A DNA stretch of 32,923 nucleotides from Fidelibacterota bacterium. Lineage in GTDB: Bacteria; Fidelibacterota; Marinisomatia; SCGC-AAA003-L08; TS1B11. Under the pieces are notes generated by a model. It made no database searches. It had not been told where the DNA came from and worked only from the letters and a program-made list of their open reading frames with translations. Position numbers and translations under genes: made by a program. The DNA is taken from assembly GCA_020346745.1 (NCBI GenBank), contig CP070787.1, positions 1,300,342 through 1,333,264 of the forward strand, read 5' to 3'. Within the stretch, counting starts at the first letter, position 1, and every line of letters starts with the position of its first letter. Of the stretch, positions 17,457-29,985 are shown piece after piece.

Positions 17457-18941
17457 TCAGTGCAAGAGTGTTATTCTCCGTGCTTCATGCTTACCGCCTG
17501 ATTCGAGCACAACTACATAGATACCCGAGGCCAGCTCGTTATCCTCAAAATGGAGTTGATGATGGCCGCTCCTCCGGTCTCCTTCCTCCAGCGTCCTGAG
17601 CCACCGACCTGTGACATCATAAAGACTAATGGTCACATGGGCCGCATCTGGCAGCCAATACCAGAGTATCGTCGCGGGATTGAACGGATTGGGATAATTC
17701 TGAAAAAGCTGTGCCGATGTTGGTAGCAGATATGGTGGATCTCCGAATGCCATGGTGGACCGGACCATCTCCTGGTAGCGCAGCAGAGCCTCGATGAAAT
17801 AATAGTCGGCATAGATCAGGGAAACATCGATCCCCTTATCTGCATTGTGATTCTGCACACCGTGTAACAGGATCCCGCAGCTATTCGTCCCCTCTGCAAG
17901 GTAAGCGTCGGAGAGTAACGACGCTAATATATCTGTAGCCGAGTTTCTGTACCGGGTGGCATCCTCTCCCGATCTGACTAAGGCTACTAATTCTAGCAGT
18001 CCGGAGAGGGCAATCGCTGACGCCGATACATCTTTCTCCTCATTAGGAATGCTATCAGCCTGAAAATCCCAGTAGGGGACCTGGTCTTCAGGGAGGTTCT
18101 CGATGAAATAATCGGCCAGCCTCTCAGCGGCCTCCAGAAAGCGCGTATCTCCCGTCTCTCGATAGGCCATGGTAAATCCATACAGGCCCCAGGCCTGCCC
18201 ACGAGCCCAGGTCGATTCAGTGGATTCTCCCTGCTTGCTGGTCCATTGCAGAACTTCCCCGGTCGTGGTATCATAATCCACAATTTGATATGTACTGCCA
18301 TCGGGACGGATGTGATCTTCAATCGTCCTTAGGGCATGACTGACCGCCATGTCATACAACTCTGCTTCACCGCCATTCTTTGCCGCCCAGAACAGGATCT
18401 CCAGATTCATCATGTTATCGATGATAACTGGAAACTCGTAGCTGTTCCAGGACCTGACACAACCCACTCTGGCGTGAAATCGGGTAGCCAGCGACCTCGC
18501 CGCCTGTATGATCACTTCCCGATATTCCTCCCTGCCTGTCAGGCGGTATCCATTCCCGAAGCTGCAAAAAATAATAAATCCCACATCGTGCGTATTGGTA
18601 TTGTACTTTGATTCCTCCAGACCAGCGGTCCAGCTCTCGGCCCATCGGCGCCAGGTAGCATCAGAGTTCCACTCATAGATTCGCCAGAGACACCCGGGAA
18701 ACCAACCGCTCACCCAACTTCCGGCAGTTCTGGTGTACCAGGATGTGTCATTCCTCGTACGGTAAGGATACCTCGTGGTGTCACCGAGTTGAGCAACCGT
18801 GGCCACGAGCTGTCGCTCCGCGAACTGCAAAGCGGATTCGACCTCGAGCGAAAGATTTTGGGGAAAAAGCGAGCCGGCCAGCAAGCTTAGCATTAGGGTT
18901 GGTACAGCTAGACCCTTCACTATCCGCTCCCTTGGCCTCAT
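17457..18941 (-). CDS. Secreted GH88 unsaturated glucuronyl hydrolase with T9SS sorting domain
   Basis: 494 residues from ATG 18941, chosen because AGGGAG lies 6 bases upstream and a good signal peptide then follows (MRPRERIVKGLAVPTLMLSLLAG). The (alpha/alpha)6-barrel carries GH88 landmarks: SWVSGWFPGCLWRIYEW, NTHDVGFIIF with Asp119, IIDNMMNLEILFWAA with Asp175, and the active-site stretch STWARGQAWGLYGF. The two Asp fit the catalytic pair known for the family. GH88 enzymes hydrate and release unsaturated uronates left by polysaccharide lyases. The last 90 residues begin LFQNYPNPFNPAT and end ASGIYVVVLESGG...ITLLH, a type A sorting domain. Surface display is unusual for GH88, most of which are intracellular or periplasmic. 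Confidence 0.92.
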   Translation of the reverse strand: MRPRERIVKGLAVPTLMLSLLAGSLFPQNLSLEVESALQFAERQLVATVAQLGDTTRYPYRTRNDTSWYTRTAGSWVSGWFPGCLWRIYEWNSDATWRRWAESWTAGLEESKYNTNTHDVGFIIFCSFGNGYRLTGREEYREVIIQAARSLATRFHARVGCVRSWNSYEFPVIIDNMMNLEILFWAAKNGGEAELYDMAVSHALRTIEDHIRPDGSTYQIVDYDTTTGEVLQWTSKQGESTESTWARGQAWGLYGFTMAYRETGDTRFLEAAERLADYFIENLPEDQVPYWDFQADSIPNEEKDVSASAIALSGLLELVALVRSGEDATRYRNSATDILASLLSDAYLAEGTNSCGILLHGVQNHNADKGIDVSLIYADYYFIEALLRYQEMVRSTMAFGDPPYLLPTSAQLFQNYPNPFNPATILWYWLPDAAHVTISLYDVTGRWLRTLEEGDRRSGHHQLHFEDNELASGIYVVVLESGGKHEARRITLLH

Positions 18942-18981
18942 TGAATCTCCCTGCACAAAAACACTGATATCACAATGCCTA

Positions 18982-20148
18982 TCACTGCTCCCGGGCTTTC
19001 TGCAGGTAACCCAGCGGGTCCACATCCACTAGTCCGGACACATCCTCCGACAGCACATCCGCAACGGTATCATGATCCCAGATGTTGTTCTCCGCCTTCA
19101 CCGTATCGGCCGTTTCGTTCACCAGATCTTTGGTCCGGCTCCCCTTTATTATGTTCAGACCAGCACTTGTTAGGTGATCACCTCCAATGGTCACGCTCCC
19201 CCCACCCAGGTCCGCCTGGACGTAGTCTTTTAGCATCACACCGGTACTGCGGGCATCCTGGATATCATTGCTTTCCAGCAGGATCCGGGCATTCTCATAA
19301 GCATATACTCCATAGTTGCCCTGACGGAATATATTGCCCCGGATAACTGCATCAACACTTCCGTATATCCGGAAACCGTATTTGGCATCATGCACGGTGT
19401 TGTTCTCGAACACTACTGTCATCGTATCACGGCCACCGCTGAATCTGGGTCCCGTCGAACTGCCGCTGAACGTACACCCCCTGACCGCATACGATCCCGA
19501 ACTGCCACCTGCCCGCACCGGCTGCTGGCAGTCCACGAACTCGCAGTTCTCCACGGTGACCGATCCACCGTTATTGATCATCACCGCCTTGTCCTCCGAA
19601 TTCTCGAAGTAGCAATCCCTAATGATGGTGCCGAAAGCTTCGTACCCCCGGCCATTGTTGGTGATCGCATCCTCGCATACGATCGGGAAACGCAGGTTCT
19701 CAACTACATTATCCACTCCACTCTGGACATGCAAACCGTCGGGGAAACGCAGCAGCGTAAAATTCCGGATCACGTTGCTATCACCATGGATCTCGATGAA
19801 ATGATCCTGCCCCTCGGTTTGGCTGCAATCATCAGGACCGGTATACCTCACCACCAGCCCGCTGTCCCCTCCATCCAGGATCAGATGGCTGCCGTAGAAA
19901 TAGATCCGGTCCTCGATCTCCAACGTATCCTCATCGCAGACGAACGTGATCATACCTCCACCCGTCACAACCACGGAGTCCAGGGCGGCTCGAAGAGCCG
20001 CTTCGGTACATTCAATTTGTAGCACCAGGCCTGGTGCATCCGATTCATCAGTAGGGGACTCCGCACACGACATCAGCACTAAGGTGGCTGCAGCATAGAG
20101 AACTACCGGTATTGCCGGTTTTATATGGTACTGCCCGCTGAGTCTCAT
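18982..20148 (-). CDS. Right-handed beta-helix lipoprotein, polysaccharide-lyase-like
   Basis: 388 residues. The leader ends in LVLMSCAES, a lipobox with Cys28, so it is a predicted lipoprotein. The body is a ladder of parallel beta-helix coils: FIEIHGDSNVIRNFTLL, GVDNVVENLRF, GTIIRDCYFENSEDKAVMINNGGSV, VVFENNTVHDAKYGFRIYG and so on, each about 22-25 residues. The overall layout resembles pectate-lyase-like proteins, with an acidic DAITNN turn near 160 that could bind calcium. I cannot assign a lyase family. The C-terminus (VDPLGYLQ) has no sorting domain. SD GAGGTGAT directly precedes the ATG. It lies 40 bases before the GH88 gene, as expected if a lyase produces the unsaturated ends that GH88 removes. 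Confidence 0.85.
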   Translation of the reverse strand: MRLSGQYHIKPAIPVVLYAAATLVLMSCAESPTDESDAPGLVLQIECTEAALRAALDSVVVTGGGMITFVCDEDTLEIEDRIYFYGSHLILDGGDSGLVVRYTGPDDCSQTEGQDHFIEIHGDSNVIRNFTLLRFPDGLHVQSGVDNVVENLRFPIVCEDAITNNGRGYEAFGTIIRDCYFENSEDKAVMINNGGSVTVENCEFVDCQQPVRAGGSSGSYAVRGCTFSGSSTGPRFSGGRDTMTVVFENNTVHDAKYGFRIYGSVDAVIRGNIFRQGNYGVYAYENARILLESNDIQDARSTGVMLKDYVQADLGGGSVTIGGDHLTSAGLNIIKGSRTKDLVNETADTVKAENNIWDHDTVADVLSEDVSGLVDVDPLGYLQKAREQ

Positions 20149-21746: not shown

Positions 21747-23285
21747 CTAGCGCAGCAGAACCATACGTCGCGCCTCCCGATACTCACCAGACACCAGCAC
21801 ATAGATATAAACGCCACTGGCAACATCCGTCCCGGTATCGTCCTTCGCATCCCATCCGGCGGTATGATGGCCAGCTGGCCGGAAACCATCCGCCAATGTC
21901 CGCACCAGGCGGCCATTGATATCATAGATCCTCAGTGTAGCTAGGTCCGACTCAAGCAACTGGTAGCGAATGGAAGTCTCGGGATTGAATGGGTTGGGAT
22001 GATTCTGCTCCAAGGCAAACCGGTGAGGCAGTTGCGCTTTCCCCCTGTTGTCAAAGCCCGTAGCGGTCGTTGTAATGTGCGTATTATCGGTCAGGTTAAA
22101 GGTAGTCGAATAGATTTCGCTACTATTCTGTGTAACCACCACCGAGTAGGGTGTGAGATACGTTGTATCAGTGGCGCTCTGCACATACGCGACCAGATCA
22201 AGGGTATCGATATTCCCCAGTGCGTCCGTCGTGTCCTCGGCAACCAGCACATCGTCCTTATCGTAAAACTGCACCAACGCCCCCTCCACTGGCGAATCGT
22301 CTACCGTGATCGTGGCGTCCACATGCCAACCCACTGTCAGCTCTGACTCAGCACCGCTGATCGTGACGGATGCCCCTTCGAAACTGGTGCCCATGAAGGT
22401 CACCTTGGCTCCGGAATTCACAGTCAGCACTAGGGAGGTCCAGCCCACGAATTCGCAGTCGATGAACACATTCCCGATACCGCCCGAGACACTGATCGTA
22501 CTGGCGTACCCATCTAAGATGTTTCCGACAAAAGTGTTGCTGTCCGAATCCTCGACTACAATGCCGTTGTTCACAAAGGTGTTACCCCTGATCAGGTTGT
22601 GCTTCGGCATACCGAGATCACCACCGTAAATGCTCAGGCCGTAATCCTTGTTATTCTCAAATAAATTATTCTCGATGAGGTTATGATGGCTCAGGTCAGT
22701 GAAGATTTCGATCCCACCACCCGTGGTAGCAGGATCATAATCGTTGTAACCGTTATGGATGATCTCATTGTCGTGGACGTAAAAATTCTGCACGCGTGAC
22801 AGTTTCATCGCCCGCAGCGCGTTGTCCCTGAATATCGAATTCCGCAGTTCATTGTTTACGCATTCACCCCCGACCTGATATCCGAAGCCTTGGTTCGAGT
22901 CGATCTGACAGCTGTCCAGCAGTCCGTCACTCCATCCCGGGGCGTACATTCCTGAACCCCAGTTGGTCATCCGCAGTTTTTTAATGGTGATGTTCGGGGA
23001 GCCCGGGCCACGGGGCTTGACGGCAACGTGATCCCCAGAAGATTCAGGAGGGCGACCACCGCCTCGAAGTGTGTGGAGCGCACCATCCAGAGTGAAGTCC
23101 TGTGCCCAGATCTCAAAGCATTGCGGAATGGACACCTCCGTCGTGGAGTAATCCTGCGTCAAAACCACCGTCTGGCCATTGTAGGCGGTGCCGAACTGTG
23201 TGTTCACCGCGAACTGGGCCATTACGCACTGAGCTCCAATGGTAAGTAAAATCACTCCTGGTATGGATATATGCAGTTTATTCAT
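21747..23285 (-). CDS. Secreted right-handed beta-helix protein with T9SS sorting domain
   Basis: 512 residues. Signal peptide 1-23 (GVILLTIGAQCVMAQ). Residues about 60-310 are parallel beta-helix coils: ITIKKLRMTNWGSGMYAP, LLDSCQIDSNQGFGYQV, LRNSIFRDNALRAMKL, NFYVHDNEIIHNGYND, NLIENNLFENNKDYGLSIYG and NLIRGNTFVNNGIVVEDS. Residues about 315-405 look like a separate beta-sandwich of the carboxypeptidase-regulatory or Cna-B type (ITVDDSPVEGALVQFYDKDD). The sorting domain starts at ALEQNHPNPFNPET near 424. No catalytic residues can be named; NosD-like and pectate-lyase-like folds are both possible. AGGAGG is well placed before the ATG. Confidence 0.87.
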   Translation of the reverse strand: MNKLHISIPGVILLTIGAQCVMAQFAVNTQFGTAYNGQTVVLTQDYSTTEVSIPQCFEIWAQDFTLDGALHTLRGGGRPPESSGDHVAVKPRGPGSPNITIKKLRMTNWGSGMYAPGWSDGLLDSCQIDSNQGFGYQVGGECVNNELRNSIFRDNALRAMKLSRVQNFYVHDNEIIHNGYNDYDPATTGGGIEIFTDLSHHNLIENNLFENNKDYGLSIYGGDLGMPKHNLIRGNTFVNNGIVVEDSDSNTFVGNILDGYASTISVSGGIGNVFIDCEFVGWTSLVLTVNSGAKVTFMGTSFEGASVTISGAESELTVGWHVDATITVDDSPVEGALVQFYDKDDVLVAEDTTDALGNIDTLDLVAYVQSATDTTYLTPYSVVVTQNSSEIYSTTFNLTDNTHITTTATGFDNRGKAQLPHRFALEQNHPNPFNPETSIRYQLLESDLATLRIYDINGRLVRTLADGFRPAGHHTAGWDAKDDTGTDVASGVYIYVLVSGEYREARRMVLLR

Positions 23286-23364: not shown

Positions 23365-24372
23365 TTATTCAGTGATACCAATAGTGAAACGATGGACGTC
23401 CTGGAAGATACCTCCCACCGGGGAATACGCGTAGTCAATCAACATGACCAGACCGCCCAGCCGCTTCCGGATACCGAAACCGGCGGCAAAACTCTCCAGA
23501 TCGTGGCCGAACTTGTATCCCGCCCTTAGCGCCAGCACGCCCCGGTACCAGTATTCACCTCCCACCTGGATGCGCTCCGTATAGTCCCGCGGAGAGATAG
23601 CATCCATACTGAGAGTTAACGACTGCGTTCCAGCCTCAGGCCGGAAGACGGAAATGATGTCCAGTGCTATCCCCAACCGGAAGGTGAGTGGCAGCTCGAA
23701 GTAATCCAGCTGGTACCGCGTCCGCGGCGAAAAGTTGCGTACGGAAAGCGCCACCCGCATATCCCGGAAGCCGGTGTAATACACCGTACCGAAATCAACT
23801 GCCAGTACGTCCTTCTTCGCCTCCCAGTCCGTGATCTGCTCACCGGTTCTCCGGTCCTGATAGTCAAAAGTGCCAAAATCCTCGTGAGCCCATTTGATCT
23901 GGCCACCCACAGAAAACGCATGCGTGATCCGCCGGGCGTAGGTCGCACCCAGCGCAAACTGCCGGATCAAATCCTGAAATCCCTGCTCTACCCAACGCTC
24001 GCCCCCTACAAAGGAGGTGACCCGTACATCCGGATTATCCATGCTGAGCACGCTGATACCGAAAACCCCGGTCGTGGCCGTACCATAAGCCACCCCCATA
24101 GAGTACATCCTCATGTCGGCCAGCCAGGCGGTGTAGTTACTGGTAAAAGCGAAACCCCTTATAGCCCCAATACCCGCCGGATTCCAGAACAACGAGTTCA
24201 CATCGCCATCTGTGGCTGCAAAGCTCCCGCCAGTAGCAGCCGGGCGCGCTCCCACATCAATGTCCAGAAAGGTCATCCCGGCCTGCCCCACTCGCTTCAT
24301 CTGCGCCGCGAGTGGTAGGCACACCATCAGCAGTGCACATATTAGCCTGGCTCTTGCTGGTCGATTACTCAA
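23365..24372 (-). CDS. PorV/PorQ-like outer-membrane beta-barrel protein
   Basis: 335 residues. TTG at 24372 is the start: GAGGTGAGGA lies upstream and the signal peptide (RPARARLICALLMVCLPLAAQ) needs those residues. Next comes the family signature GQAGMTFLDIDVGARPAATGG ... DGDVNSLFWNPAGIG, as in PorV and PorQ of type IX secretion systems, followed by amphipathic strands to the end (DVHRFTIGITE). PorV is a shuttle that binds sorting domains and carries cargo to the attachment machinery; PorQ is a related barrel. Which one this resembles more cannot be settled here. It directly follows the sorted 704-residue protein by 25 bases. The core secretion genes (sov/sprA, porK-N) are not in the window. 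Confidence 0.88.
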   Translation of the reverse strand: MSNRPARARLICALLMVCLPLAAQMKRVGQAGMTFLDIDVGARPAATGGSFAATDGDVNSLFWNPAGIGAIRGFAFTSNYTAWLADMRMYSMGVAYGTATTGVFGISVLSMDNPDVRVTSFVGGERWVEQGFQDLIRQFALGATYARRITHAFSVGGQIKWAHEDFGTFDYQDRRTGEQITDWEAKKDVLAVDFGTVYYTGFRDMRVALSVRNFSPRTRYQLDYFELPLTFRLGIALDIISVFRPEAGTQSLTLSMDAISPRDYTERIQVGGEYWYRGVLALRAGYKFGHDLESFAAGFGIRKRLGGLVMLIDYAYSPVGGIFQDVHRFTIGITE

Positions 24373-24397
24373 CTGCTATTCCTCACCTCGATGACCA

Positions 24398-26512
24398 TCA
24401 CCTGATCAGCACGATGTTTCCCATAGTGTTCCCTAGATCACTCTCGACGGTATAGATATATACCCCGCTGACCACATTCTGATTGCTCATCGTCTCCTGG
24501 GACCATTCCTCCTGACCGTTTGCCGACTTTCCTGGTTCGTGGCGATGCTCAATGGTGTGTACTAGGTTTCCGCTCTGGGTGTAGATCTTGATGGTGCACT
24601 CAGCCGGCAAGCCGACGAACATCAACCTCCGTGCCGCCCCTGCACCCCAACTCTGGGCCTTGTTGATATGGGGATTGGGCACCACCATGACATTGCTGAG
24701 TGGACCTTCCACCTCAGGTGGCCAGCCTGGTTGGGCGCGTACCTCCGGAAACAGCGTGTAGAACATACCCGACTCACGACCGTCGGTATCAAAAGCGGTC
24801 AGATAGTAATCGTACTCCCACAAGGGCGTTATGTTGGTGTCGATAAACGAATGCACAATAGTCGGATGATCGGTGCCCGCACCCCACTCCATGATCTTTC
24901 GGAATAAGGTATCGGCTAGGGTTGCGGGGGGATCGGGCGGCCTTGCGGACCGATAATTGCGATACAGCCGGTATCCGGCGAAATCCGTGGCGCTCTCCGA
25001 GGTCGAACCATCCCACTCCAGCCGCACTTGATTGACCTCGGAAGTAATGGTGAGACTCCGGGGTGGCGGCGGTGCCAGCAGGTCATCAGAGCGGCTCCTC
25101 AATCCATTCGTGTAATCATACATGTATCTCGCCCGGCCGAACGCCGCCATAAGCGAATCTCGACCTGTGGCAACGATCGTATTTTTCTCCTCATCCGTCA
25201 ATTCCCCCGCTTTCCACTGCTGCCCGGCCTCGATGGCTCGCTGCCGGCTTATCCCACCAGCGGCATAGGCCGTGACGATCCGCAGCGATTCACCTGGACC
25301 AAAATCATAAGGACCGAAACCAAGGAAAAAACCATGATTCTCGGCTAGGTTATCCAGGCCTGCTTGCCCCGCCCTCAAGGAATCACGTCGTCCGCTGCTG
25401 ATGTATTGGTACACGGTGCTGTCAGCCAACCCCGGTGGCCCCCACTGGGTCTGATCAAATGCATAGCGGCCTTGGTACTCTCCTCGCCAGTCTGTGGTCT
25501 TCGGCTGCGTGGGATCGTCAGTCTCGTCTGAAGGACTGCTGTCTGCATGCAGCACGGAAACACCGACATACTGCGGAGAAAGCAGCACACCGGTAAGCAC
25601 GTGCGGATTCCCCGTATCGTCGTAACCGATTGGCTCAGCGTCACCATCCCATGAAATCAGGGCCCGCAAGGAATCCTCAGGCGCTTGCCCCGCCTGCCCG
25701 TAACTCTCACCAATGTACTCATGCCGGGCATCATGACCCCAGCCCCCTTGCAGCTCGGCACCCCAGTTGCCTATATGCTGGGCACCCAGCGCACTGGGCT
25801 GGAATCGAAAGCACAGGGCAAGCCAGACATCATTCAGCTGCTTGGGCCAGCCGCTGATCTGCACTTCCCGGTCCTGGAAGCCCTCCCGACGCATGACCTT
25901 ACCCGTATTCTCGAATATATACTCCACTATGATGTAATCATCGTGATCCCGCAGGCTCCACCCGTATGCCTGGCGCGTAATAGTGATCCCTGTCTCGCTG
26001 TGGGTTACATTCTGTACGACCATTTCGGCTGGTAATACCGGAACCATGGCAGTGGGATATATTGGCCGCTGATCCCCATCGATAACGAGAATCGGATCCA
26101 GCCACCTGCTGTAGCGGTCCTCTGAGACCACCTTGATCCGATCGTTGTAGGGACCGCGGTCACCCCACGCCCCGGCATGATAATAATCATGGCGCTGACC
26201 TTGCGCATCCGTGAAATCAGGCAGTGCGAGATAGATACCAGACGCGCCCAGAAGACCCTGGACATCGTCATCATCCATCCAGGCATATTCGGCCGGCCAG
26301 AACAGCCAGTTCTCGGATTCGTAATCAAGATTGAACATGCGTGCATGTTCATAACTCTCGTAAAAGTTCCCGGCGAACACCGCCTGCAACCGGCCAATAT
26401 TCATATACTGGATCGTCTGACCCCAACCCGGCACTGACAACAACAATATCGCAGACACCATGACACCGATCATGGCAGCCGATCTGGGCTGTCTCCTCTC
26501 CAACCGGCTCAT
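24398..26512 (-). CDS. Secreted protein with FN3-like domain and sorting-domain-like C-terminus, partner of the TonB receptor
   Basis: 704 residues of unknown function. Signal peptide about 1-32 (AMIGVMVSAILLLSVPGWGQ). The first 470 residues are rich in Trp, Tyr and Asp and look like a beta-rich binding protein; I recognise no catalytic motif. A fibronectin type III-like domain covers about 480-600 (SEVNQVRLEWDGSTSE ... GYRLYRNY ... YDYYLTAFDTDGRESG). The end (VVPNPHINKAQ ... IKIYTQSGNLVHTIEH ... VSGVYIYTVES ... IVLIR) is a divergent sorting domain that uses VVPNP in place of NYPNPF. It starts 6 bases after the TonB receptor stop with GAGGT upstream. Position and size suggest a surface substrate-binding partner of that receptor, in a SusD-like role but not SusD by sequence. 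Confidence 0.8.
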   Translation of the reverse strand: MSRLERRQPRSAAMIGVMVSAILLLSVPGWGQTIQYMNIGRLQAVFAGNFYESYEHARMFNLDYESENWLFWPAEYAWMDDDDVQGLLGASGIYLALPDFTDAQGQRHDYYHAGAWGDRGPYNDRIKVVSEDRYSRWLDPILVIDGDQRPIYPTAMVPVLPAEMVVQNVTHSETGITITRQAYGWSLRDHDDYIIVEYIFENTGKVMRREGFQDREVQISGWPKQLNDVWLALCFRFQPSALGAQHIGNWGAELQGGWGHDARHEYIGESYGQAGQAPEDSLRALISWDGDAEPIGYDDTGNPHVLTGVLLSPQYVGVSVLHADSSPSDETDDPTQPKTTDWRGEYQGRYAFDQTQWGPPGLADSTVYQYISSGRRDSLRAGQAGLDNLAENHGFFLGFGPYDFGPGESLRIVTAYAAGGISRQRAIEAGQQWKAGELTDEEKNTIVATGRDSLMAAFGRARYMYDYTNGLRSRSDDLLAPPPPRSLTITSEVNQVRLEWDGSTSESATDFAGYRLYRNYRSARPPDPPATLADTLFRKIMEWGAGTDHPTIVHSFIDTNITPLWEYDYYLTAFDTDGRESGMFYTLFPEVRAQPGWPPEVEGPLSNVMVVPNPHINKAQSWGAGAARRLMFVGLPAECTIKIYTQSGNLVHTIEHRHEPGKSANGQEEWSQETMSNQNVVSGVYIYTVESDLGNTMGNIVLIR

Positions 26513-26518
26513 GCGGCT

Positions 26519-29500
26519 CTACCTCAAGCTCACCTTTAATCCGAAGTAAACGTCCCGCTTGGGGAAATAAAGCGCATATTCGGGACCATACGGAAGATGG
26601 ATGCCCTCTTTGTCCGTCTCCCCGACCCGGTAGCCGTGTTCGATAATGGAATCATAATATACCGATTGACCGGTCGGGAAGGGTGCACCATCAGCCGTCG
26701 GACTGCCGAAATAGTTGATCATGTTGAAATTCCTGGTGTTGAACAGGTTGTAGATCTCCATGTATAAGGTGACTTCGACCTCGGCCAGGATGATGCGCTT
26801 GGACAGCTTCAAATCCGTCTGGCGGAAGCCCATCCACTGCATATTCTCCTGCACGTAGAATTCACCCTCGGGATTGTAGGTGAACTTGGCACCCTCATTC
26901 CACACGTGCATGAAGTTGGCCCGCCACTCGCCCAGAGGATACATCCCCAGCACCCGTGGCCCGAATGCGGCCGGGGTATGCAGATCAAGATTGAAACGAA
27001 TGCGCGAGCGGGAAGGATATACCGTCTGAGAACGACTCGAACGCTCCCGGAGCACGCTGTCATATGGAGCAGCCACATAAATCCCATTATCAGCCTCTGA
27101 CAGGTAACTCGCGTGCCCCTGCTGGTACTCGTACGAATAACCGGTCCGCCCCGTGCTCCGCAGGCTATAATCGTAACTGAACCAGCCGGTGACGAACTTG
27201 CCGATCCGCTTCTCCAACTTGAGGTCCAGACCCCGGATATCGTTATATCGGTAATTCTGAGGCAGGTACATCTTGACACCACTGCTGCTGTTCCCATGGT
27301 ACTGAAACGTGCTTACCTCATCACCCGTATAACGGTAATAACCACTGATAGCCAACCGGTACATGTTGTACAGGCTCTGTTCGTACCCCACCTCCCACGC
27401 GATCGTCTTCTCCATCTTTAACCTGGGATTCCCTGCTGTCCTGAGCATCCACTCCTCGCTGCTCCTCTGATTGATGGCAAACAGATGAATAGAACGTGGA
27501 GGCTGATAGGCATGACCATAGTTGAAGAATATCTTGGCCTTCTCACCAATGGGATGCGATATCCCCAGCCGGGGACTCCAGTTCACCTGCCAGGGCGGGT
27601 CGAAAAGCAGGGAATCGGGGAGCACGTCCCGGGCCAGATTGCCCCGGCCCAGGCGAACCACCCTCGCCAGGCTGTCCTCACGTGATTGCATCAGGGGATT
27701 CCCCGGACCACCGCGACCGAATAGCGGATTAAAAGGATCACTGCCGATATCGTAAAACGAATCTTCAGGATCAAAACCATCGATCCGTACACCCACCGTC
27801 GCGATCATTCCCTTGTATTCTAGCTTGTCTTCCGCGTATCCGGAAACTCTCAAAGGTTTAGCATCAAAATACCATACTACGCCGCCCTCCTTCGGCTTCA
27901 GGCGGAACAGGTACTCGTGACTCGCGATGACATCCACACCCGCCTTGAACTGATGGTGTATACCGATCTGGCTCTTGACGCTCGCCTTCGTAGTCCAGAT
28001 TTCCGAGTAGGAGTTGTCCTGCCAGTTCTGGCTCGGAATCGCCCCCAGCTGCGAGCTGATATTCGGCAGTCGCCCCCAGGGTGCCTCATCGTAGTATTTC
28101 CAGTGTCCGGGCATACCGATCCGCTTGGCATACACCCCGGGTGTCCACACCCCGTCGCCGTTGCTGTCCGTGTACGGCTCACCGGAATCCCATTCTCCAT
28201 CAAGGTCCAGGTCTTCCCAGGGTTCATCCGGGATCAGCGTGGTATCCCGGACTTCCGCCTGGATCAGCTCATTCCAATGGTGAGCATATTGAACATTCAG
28301 TTCAAAAACCGTCTCCGGCGTCGGAACCCACGACAAATTGACGCTGTTGAAAGTGTGATTGCGCTTGTCTGTGGGTTTCATCCATAAACCGTTATGATCC
28401 GGCATCCGCCAGCCTTCCGCAAAGTCACCTCGCTCTAACTGATTGAACTCCTGGAGAGGCATCTCCAGCACGTGGCCAAATGCGAAATTCTCCAGGTCAG
28501 TCCGGTACTCGAATCCTCCCCACCGTACCGACCATAATCCGGTATACCACAGCTTGACATTCGTCGCCGGATGGCTGGTCACCTTCAACTGCATCGTGTA
28601 ATCGTTATACCCCCCGTCGCGGCCGCCCGCCCGCGGGTACATCCACTCGGAATACTTCGTCCGGTAGGAGGCGAAGAAGGTCGTCAGCCCGGTTATCGGT
28701 TTGACCAGCGGAACCGGTCCACTCAAGGTGGCCTCGACGTTGTAATCCCATTTATCACCATACTCCCATAGCTCCGGCCGGTACTTCCAGATCCATTCCT
28801 CCCTGATGAAATTGGCCACCTGCATGGTATCTTCATGAGTTCTGTTTTGCAGGAGTGGGTACCAGGGGTGGCCCGAAGAGATACCGCCCACTGCCGCGAT
28901 CCACCCGGGAAACCAACTGTTGCCGGTATAGGCCGTGCCTTCAAGTGAAATCTCCTGCTGGGTCTCGGCATCCCAGTAGCTTCCGTAACCCAGGTGAGCC
29001 CCATAGTTATAATTAAACACGCAAGCCGTGGTATCATTGATTGCCGGGCCAAAGTGCTTGAGACCTGGCGGGCTGGCCTTCATATCCACCGAAGCTGCGA
29101 TTTTCTCCCCACCTTCCTTGGTGACTACCTTGATCACACCCGAACGAGCTTCCCCGTATTCAGCGCTGAAACCACCGGTGAGCAACTGCACTTCCTGAAT
29201 ATTATCCAGATTCAACTTCGTGAATTGATAGCCCGAGGTAAGGTCCTTGAGACTCATACCGTCCACCATCAGGTTCACCTGCGACTCACCACCACCGCGA
29301 ACTTCAAAACCCTGATCCTCGCTGGTGGCCGACCGGACACCAAACTTGTTAGGATCATACTCAAGTGCTTGGCTGCTGGGACTACTCCAATCTCCCCAGC
29401 CCGGCTGGGTCATGAAAACCTGATCGAAAGTGCCGCCGTAGGCTGTATTCTCGATGACCTCCCCATCTACCATATGCGAAGCGGAGGACATGTCCATCCT

Positions 29501-29896
29501 GATGACCTCTCGCTCTGCGGTAACGATCACCTCCTCAGCGGCCTCCAGTACCGTCGATTCCAGGCTGAAATCAAGTGGCGTAGTATGGTCCTGACTCACC
29601 ACCACATCACTCTTCACCAGCGGGATGTAGCCCATCATCGTGGCTCTCACAACATAAGTACGGGGGGGTAGATTGATGATGAAGTACTCACCATTAAGGT
29701 TTGTGGCTGCCCCCAGAGCAGTACCTTCGATCATGACATTGGCCGCCGGCAATGGCTCACCGGTCTCGGCATCCGTTACCCGGCCTGCAATCTTGCCCGT
29801 AGATGCGGCGAAAATGATATCCGTACCCTGGACAATCCATAGGCAAAGTAATGCTCGTATCAGGACTAACTTGATATTTGGCAGCCGATCCTCCAT
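26519..29896 (-). CDS. TonB-dependent outer-membrane receptor with carboxypeptidase-regulatory-like domain
   Basis: 1125 residues from ATG 29896, chosen for GAGGG upstream and a normal signal peptide (VLIRALLCLWIVQGTDIIFAA); an in-frame start at 29938 is possible but adds a charged leader. Residues about 35-115 form a CarboxypepD_reg-like domain (GKIAGRVTDAETGEPLPAANV ... YVVRATMMGYIP). The plug follows at about 125-250 (GGESQVNLMVDGMSL ... IQEVQLLTGGFSAEYGEARSGVIKVVT), then a long barrel. A loop at about residues 558-586 carries two Asp-rich stretches, DLDLDGEWDSG and DSNGDGVW, that resemble calcium-binding loops. The barrel ends YFGLKVSLR, without a terminal aromatic. It should import a large substrate across the outer membrane with energy from TonB. 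Confidence 0.92.
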   Translation of the reverse strand: MEDRLPNIKLVLIRALLCLWIVQGTDIIFAASTGKIAGRVTDAETGEPLPAANVMIEGTALGAATNLNGEYFIINLPPRTYVVRATMMGYIPLVKSDVVVSQDHTTPLDFSLESTVLEAAEEVIVTAEREVIRMDMSSASHMVDGEVIENTAYGGTFDQVFMTQPGWGDWSSPSSQALEYDPNKFGVRSATSEDQGFEVRGGGESQVNLMVDGMSLKDLTSGYQFTKLNLDNIQEVQLLTGGFSAEYGEARSGVIKVVTKEGGEKIAASVDMKASPPGLKHFGPAINDTTACVFNYNYGAHLGYGSYWDAETQQEISLEGTAYTGNSWFPGWIAAVGGISSGHPWYPLLQNRTHEDTMQVANFIREEWIWKYRPELWEYGDKWDYNVEATLSGPVPLVKPITGLTTFFASYRTKYSEWMYPRAGGRDGGYNDYTMQLKVTSHPATNVKLWYTGLWSVRWGGFEYRTDLENFAFGHVLEMPLQEFNQLERGDFAEGWRMPDHNGLWMKPTDKRNHTFNSVNLSWVPTPETVFELNVQYAHHWNELIQAEVRDTTLIPDEPWEDLDLDGEWDSGEPYTDSNGDGVWTPGVYAKRIGMPGHWKYYDEAPWGRLPNISSQLGAIPSQNWQDNSYSEIWTTKASVKSQIGIHHQFKAGVDVIASHEYLFRLKPKEGGVVWYFDAKPLRVSGYAEDKLEYKGMIATVGVRIDGFDPEDSFYDIGSDPFNPLFGRGGPGNPLMQSREDSLARVVRLGRGNLARDVLPDSLLFDPPWQVNWSPRLGISHPIGEKAKIFFNYGHAYQPPRSIHLFAINQRSSEEWMLRTAGNPRLKMEKTIAWEVGYEQSLYNMYRLAISGYYRYTGDEVSTFQYHGNSSSGVKMYLPQNYRYNDIRGLDLKLEKRIGKFVTGWFSYDYSLRSTGRTGYSYEYQQGHASYLSEADNGIYVAAPYDSVLRERSSRSQTVYPSRSRIRFNLDLHTPAAFGPRVLGMYPLGEWRANFMHVWNEGAKFTYNPEGEFYVQENMQWMGFRQTDLKLSKRIILAEVEVTLYMEIYNLFNTRNFNMINYFGSPTADGAPFPTGQSVYYDSIIEHGYRVGETDKEGIHLPYGPEYALYFPKRDVYFGLKVSLR

Positions 29897-29935
29897 GGCA
29901 CCCTCAGATCTGTCTCCTCGTCGTGGGCCTTCCGG

Positions 29936-29985
29936 CAATATCAGCGACGGTTATGCATACGCAGGCTGTGCCAGTCCTGATATTG
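29936..29985 (-). promoter_or_regulatory. Inverted repeat upstream of the TonB receptor gene
   Basis: Perfect 9-base arms, CAATATCAG and CTGATATTG, are separated by 32 bases, 39 bases upstream of the receptor start codon. The place fits an operator or a structured mRNA leader for the long gene series that follows. The 152-base gap is the last gap over 90 bases before the left edge, so it is also the likeliest promoter region, but I could not find a convincing -35/-10 pair. Confidence 0.35.

Follow-up and report, generated by a model that had tools for sequence, protein, structure and literature searches.

The window, by which the whole analysed stretch of 32,923 nucleotides is meant, carries on its minus strand three co-directional genes in the order receptor, middle gene and barrel (Table 1). 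They are separated by spacers of 6 bases (26513–26518) and 25 bases (24373–24397), and the trio with these gaps, described in a preceding sequence-only reading of this DNA, was reproduced from the open reading frames. The first gene encodes a TonB-dependent receptor matching the Pfam families CarboxypepD_reg (64.8 bits) and Plug (36.8 bits); a TTG is available as alternative start codon (ORF 26519–29938). The third gene encodes an outer-membrane barrel which scored 174.6 bits against NF033709 (cut-off 90) and is thus a member of the PorV/PorQ family. Its scores lie under the equivalog cut-offs for PorV (NF033710, 65.1 with a cut-off of 250) and PorQ (NF033711, 61.8 with a cut-off of 220), and the same applies to ten further barrels of the trio type. 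In the PDB the barrel matched PorV of the SprA translocon (6h3i_F), and with 17.5 bits against TIGR03519 (cut-off 90.55) it is not a PorP/SprF protein.

Table 1. Positions of the trio, its domains and neighbouring genes in the window, and of the homologous trio of Rhodothermus marinus.
Feature	Position	Strand	Basis or remark
TonB-dependent receptor, trio gene 1	26519..29896 (from internal ATG)	(-)	CarboxypepD_reg-like N-terminus, plug, barrel region
Middle protein, 704 aa, trio gene 2	24398..26512	(-)	ORF; 94 full-length homologues sampled
FN3-like domain of the middle protein, residues ~484-599	24716..25063	(-)	family profile matches FN3 structures (3mpc_A first, E 2e-6)
C-terminal domain of the middle protein, residues ~600-704	24398..24715	(-)	type-A-like, closest to PorZ/PorU CTDs
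PorV/PorQ-family outer-membrane barrel, 335 aa, trio gene 3	23365..24372	(-)	NF033709
Right-handed beta-helix protein, next gene downstream	21747..23285	(-)	Beta_helix; TIGR04183 29.6 bits (cut-off 23); syntenic in sister genome
Pectate-lyase-like beta-helix protein	18982..20148	(-)	sister-genome synteny, 76% identity
GH88-like (unsaturated glucuronyl hydrolase family) protein with type A sorting domain	17457..19025	(-)	sister-genome synteny, 70% identity
pRMAR01 trio: RMAR_RS14120 TonB-dependent receptor, RS14115 hypothetical protein (1132 aa), RS14110 PorV/PorQ family	L118:6320-13462		annotators' calls

The middle protein comprises a Sec-type N-terminus, an N-terminal domain of approximately 450 residues, an FN3 domain and a C-terminal sorting or retention domain. 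Its signal region, ending in ...LLLSVPGWGQT, contains no lipobox cysteine as judged by eye. No Pfam domain was found above threshold in this protein, with weak C-terminal matches to CHU_C, FlgD_ig and PorZ, and no enzyme family was matched among 37 members of its family. A PDB search with the single sequence yielded chance matches only; the FN3 match was obtained with the family profile and spans profile positions of about 480–560. An AlphaFold model computed from three near-identical sequences (the window protein and two relatives) reached a pLDDT of 30 and was discarded.

In the sequence-only reading, the middle protein was taken to carry a sorting domain in place of a lipid anchor. The missing lipobox cysteine and a type-IX-like C-terminal domain (CTD) are in line with this, but the domain is not of the canonical type A, as it reached 13.1 bits against TIGR04183 (cut-off 23). 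It was recognized instead by the models for PorZ (NF052228, E 4.9e-6) and PorU (NF033707, 2e-4). Across the 37 family members, 13 matched the PorZ model and three TIGR04183, and the family profile matched at the CTD the PorZ structure 5m11_A (E 4e-4). Canonical type A signals are common in the same genome, where approximately 50 proteins were picked up by the CTD end of the PorU model, and neighbours of the trio in the window pass TIGR04183. The CTDs of PorU and PorZ are left unprocessed, and the two proteins are held on PorV and PorQ, respectively (PMC5562754; PMC10202324), and a review suggested that cognate PorV-like barrels may shield CTDs from cleavage (PMC10202324).

The best evidence for a connection between this CTD and the barrel was obtained when each middle gene was scored against profiles of the variant and the canonical CTD. 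Ninety-four genes carried the variant and two the canonical form, with two truncated ones being unclear. For at least 78 of the variant-CTD genes, a barrel is encoded no more than five genes away, and with four further loci the number rises to 82. The only canonical-CTD middle proteins, encoded at L050:5103-7247 in the genome of the window and at L158:6824-8893 in a member of another class, have neither a barrel nor a receptor nearby. Outside the CTD both are closest to a cassette member of their own genome (65% and 60% identity, respectively), and the swap to a canonical CTD therefore happened twice, independently. With contig-edge cases set aside, a barrel is missing for both canonical genes (2/2) and for 4/86 variant ones (Fisher's exact test, ~0.004). 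The variant-CTD exceptions are L146 and L148, which lack a barrel, and two tandem middle genes with PorZ-like CTD (L138:6253-10828, genome G003), which have neither receptor nor barrel within five genes. This co-occurrence of CTD class and barrel presence suggests a match between the variant CTD and a dedicated barrel.

The assumption that the barrel could deliver the middle protein can be refined, as delivery alone does not seem to describe its role. By analogy to PorQ/PorZ, PorV/PorU and SprF/SprB, it is more likely a permanent anchor than a delivery vehicle only, and we propose that it both shuttles the middle protein and anchors it as its cognate barrel. As in PorZ/PorQ and PorU/PorV, a surface protein with an uncleaved CTD would be held by a PorV/PorQ-family barrel, the CTD of the trio being closest to that of PorZ. 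The pair of the trio differs from these systems in occurring in many copies per genome and in its association with a TonB receptor. Moreover, its middle protein has an N-terminal part which, in contrast to PorU and PorZ, is neither a sortase nor, by sequence, a beta-propeller. For type B cargo (SprB/SprF, PG1035/PorP), the cognate barrel is shuttle and anchor in one (PMC12618676; PMC9143113). Such systems resemble the trio in that the cargo gene is directly followed by the gene of a dedicated outer-membrane barrel, whereas the barrel of the trio is of the PorV/PorQ family, its CTD is type-A-like and the unit includes a TonB receptor.

Core components of a type IX secretion system are encoded in the genome. 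SprA was found with its neighbours at 698.6 bits (cut-off 200; main copy at ~2.546–2.552 Mb) and PorU at 663.9 bits (cut-off 420). Together with the homology of the CTD to that of PorZ, these two proteins support the type IX route that had been presumed for the middle protein. Thirteen PorV-family barrels score above the cut-off, most of them encoded beside a variant-CTD gene. Additional SprA-like pieces at 702510–705104, 1390122–1391123 and 3033540–3034040 might be one or more second paralogues or fragments. At L053:2461-6696, the best candidate for PorV itself (435 aa) is encoded directly upstream of an M6-like protein that scored 330 bits against the family of T9SS-dependent inactivated M6 metalloproteases (cut-off 600). 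A keyword search in the literature collection consulted yielded nothing on type IX secretion in Marinimicrobia and nothing connecting PorV-family genes to TonB receptors, and the trio module is apparently undescribed so far.

The module is real and recurrent. The genome contains about six to eight copies of the trio, and a search with the middle protein gave 12 matches, including full-length paralogues which are 25–31% identical to the window protein. Besides the window, four trios include the form of approximately 700 residues (L042, L045, L046, L052), scaffold gaps divide a fifth one (L043 with L175), and a longer middle gene of approximately 1000 residues lies in a trio in two places (L047, L051). 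At loci of relatives, the order receptor, middle gene, barrel is kept nearly everywhere. The survey covered 94 distinct middle genes of full length, which were chosen by best hits and are not a random sample; in 81 of them a TonB receptor gene is located immediately upstream on the same strand, with gaps between -115 and 71 bases (median 14). A PorV-family gene follows within two genes in 55 of the 80 cases with two downstream genes visible. The possibility that the middle gene rarely stands next to TonB receptors, which the sequence-only reading had raised against itself, is contradicted by this neighbourhood survey in Marinimicrobia, and its view of the trio as one module gains support from the phylum-wide arrangement and from a gene order like that of SusC followed by SusD. 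The profile of the middle family matches 174 of 176 genomes of the phylum, the matches in families with small genomes being mostly short ones to FN3/CTD. Scans of viral contigs for relatives of the middle protein gave none.

The genome contains 28 plug-bearing receptors, and the others that were read have no middle-type partner, from which we estimate chance adjacency at about 1%. Three receptors of the genome that belong to the clade of the trio receptors seem to stand alone (L170, L174, L175), and a loss of the partner was suspected for them. All three end at scaffold gaps of 100 N and are for this reason best read as assembly breaks, not as losses. In one case the two halves can be related to each other: the L175 receptor is 65% identical to the receptor of a trio in a sister genome, and the middle gene of that trio shares 63% identity with the gap-adjacent one of L043. 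The gap concerned lies at L043:6416-6515, and this trio is seemingly split between 0.65 and 1.99 Mb. In general, the single-contig metagenome-assembled genome (MAG) is joined by many such gaps, making gene order across them unreliable; the window itself is gap-free.

A larger form of the locus is common among the relatives, in which receptor 1, middle gene 1, a small lipoprotein, the barrel, a TIG/beta-propeller lipoprotein, receptor 2 and middle gene 2 follow each other (L062, L063, L065, L066, L069, L070, L071, L073 and L120–L129), some with a second barrel. One barrel can thus be shared by two receptor/middle pairs, and the pairing of the barrel is not strictly one-to-one. By eye, both additional proteins carry close to the N-terminus a cysteine with acidic residues after it, as known from surface lipoproteins of Bacteroidota. 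The TIG/propeller lipoproteins recall the surface glycan-binding proteins of SusC/SusD loci.

Outside the phylum, a search of plasmids matched a single record, pRMAR01 of Rhodothermus marinus DSM 4252, with a homologous trio (Table 1); a survey beyond Marinimicrobia was therefore positive for Rhodothermota. RS14115 shares the C-terminal domain of the middle family (74.6 bits), its relationship to the long form encoded at L047 extends along its length (534 bits, E 3e-161), and RMAR_RS14120 groups with the trio-type receptors in the tree. Genes for a peptidoglycan-recognition protein and a serine hydrolase follow the plasmid trio. As this thermophilic strain is in culture, the trio is accessible to direct experiments.

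The distance matrices of receptors and middle proteins, compared over 73 pairs, correlated with r = 0.895, as against 0.619 (sd 0.055, maximum 0.762) in 500 shuffles of the partners within genomes; inside genomes alone, r was 0.91 (33 pairs). In 45 complete trios, correlations of 0.853 for middle protein and barrel and 0.838 for receptor and barrel were obtained. Receptor, middle protein and barrel hence duplicate and diverge as cognate units, which fits any obligate functional link and is not specific to a physical complex. A domain-resolved comparison, relating the N-terminal part to the receptor and the CTD to the barrel, pointed in the expected direction but was non-significant (27% of bootstraps ≤0).

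With regard to SusC/SusD, the claim that no SusD is present was extended to the genome as a whole: none of the families PF07980, PF14322, PF12771 and PF12741 was found in the gap-scaffolded MAG, which is ~71% complete by marker genes. Likewise, no SusD Pfam was detected among the 37 members of the middle family. The middle protein was also considered as a distant homologue of SusD and rejected as such, since a profile comparison with hhalign gave a probability of 0.3%. The receptor scored 71.6 bits against the SusC model TIGR04056, far under the cut-off of 368. Among the relatives, 32 of 100 genomes match PF07980, and the SusC/SusD loci read there are plain receptor–SusD pairs without a PorV gene. 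In the receptor tree, the receptors of the trios are united in a single clade (support 100/99), the long-form ones branch beside it, and the true SusC proteins from relatives fall into a separate clade. The SusD-free trio is apparently a second way of giving a transporter a partner, unrelated in sequence to SusC/SusD.

The similarities to SusC/SusD and RagA/RagB comprise a TonB receptor with N-terminal CarboxypepD-like domain, a directly following gene for a putative surface partner, a polysaccharide-degradation context and many paralogous copies per genome. In contrast to SusC/SusD, the receptors form a separate clade and the partner has no SusD domain or lipid anchor, but a type IX CTD and a barrel of its own. 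The initial description as a SusCD-like system built on type IX secretion is supported for the gene order and for the type IX route (SprA, PorU, PorZ-like CTD), while the role of a lid or binding partner that it considered for the middle protein stays a prediction.

The context in the window is that of a catabolic gene cluster. On the same strand, the trio is followed by the beta-helix, pectate-lyase-like and GH88-like genes of Table 1 and by those for a second CTD protein, an SDR, a GH3, an AAT-type protein, a DUF4838/GH67N-like protein, SBP_bac_5 and Opp-type ABC components; a ceramidase-like gene is also part of this co-directional stretch (1–23285). Most of the region reaching from the second gene upstream of the trio to the GH3 gene is syntenic in a sister species (56–83% identity), and the beta-helix gene directly downstream is likely part of the same cluster as the trio. 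Window positions 1–23285 thus represent a polysaccharide utilisation locus without SusD. In view of the GH88 and lyase-like neighbours, a uronate-containing polysaccharide is the likeliest substrate, and the trio of the window would probably import uronate-containing oligosaccharides.

Taken together, we consider it reasonably probable that the trio is one uptake module, consisting of a TonB transporter, a surface partner exported by type IX secretion and a PorV/PorQ-like barrel that holds this partner. The receptor would be the energised outer-membrane transporter. The middle protein would be passed by Sec across the inner membrane and by the type IX translocon SprA across the outer one. It would then sit outside the cell, next to or over its own receptor, where its N-terminal domain of ~450 residues may assist in substrate capture or gating, in the way of SusD on SusC. 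Its PorZ-like CTD would not be cleaved and exchanged for a lipid as in ordinary cargo; the dedicated barrel would collect it from SprA and keep it bound. As the CTD would stay on the barrel, the latter could replace the lipid anchor by which SusD, the surface partner of SusC, is attached (PMC7782687). In the window, such a module would head a cluster for polysaccharide degradation. The best-supported model is accordingly that of the PorQ/PorZ and SprF/SprB principle, presumably applied to a nutrient transporter.

The most serious competitor of the uptake module is a middle protein that acts as an independent surface protein (an enzyme, an adhesin or a factor for substrate capture), which is co-expressed with the receptor, never docks to it and is merely delivered by the barrel. 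All linkage data are compatible with such a functional link without contact, and L050 and L158, which combine a canonical CTD with a location apart from receptor and barrel genes, imply that the N-terminal domain is workable without an adjacent receptor gene. Nevertheless, the strict gene order, the median gap of 14 bases, a co-evolution that survives shuffling and a partner-specific receptor clade exceed what is usual for co-regulation, and no enzyme family was matched, so that we regard an independent surface protein as rather unlikely.

It is less probable still that the middle protein is ordinary type IX cargo, shuttled by a PorV-like protein, cleaved by PorU and attached to a surface glycolipid, with the adjacent barrel as a redundant copy of PorV. 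The genome does encode PorU, a PorV candidate and approximately 50 proteins with canonical signals, and in known systems the whole of the type A cargo is handled by PorV (PMC12618676). However, the CTD falls short of the canonical model and is like that of the uncleaved PorZ, canonical CTDs of the family occur only outside the cassette, and thirteen PorV-family barrels, mostly next to variant-CTD genes, fit a dedicated use. Finally, the barrel might be a FadL-like channel acting with the receptor on a hydrophobic substrate that the middle protein binds for both, since PorV belongs to the FadL superfamily (PMC12578637) and a weak match of the barrel to Toluene_X was found. This appears very improbable, as the family match is to PorV/PorQ and not to transporters, the barrel co-occurs with the CTD variant and the surroundings in the window point to polysaccharide breakdown.

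TonB receptors with surface lipoproteins other than SusD, such as BtuB/BtuG, are known as well. They share with the trio a TonB receptor and a non-SusD surface partner; their partners are lipoproteins, whereas that of the trio is predicted to be exported by type IX secretion and anchored on a barrel. The surface partners of TonB receptors met in these comparisons (SusD, BtuG) are all lipoproteins. As a wider and more tentative proposal, the uptake module would represent a second class of lidded TonB transporters with an origin separate from SusC/SusD, in which receptor, type IX-exported lid and dedicated PorV/PorQ-type anchor would form a complex of three proteins, distributed throughout Marinimicrobia and also present in Rhodothermota. 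If this is true, the lid strategy evolved more than once and the expansion of the PorV family would gain a function outside sorting. It would also explain how large substrates can be taken up without SusD in the Marinimicrobia, which are abundant but almost uncultured.
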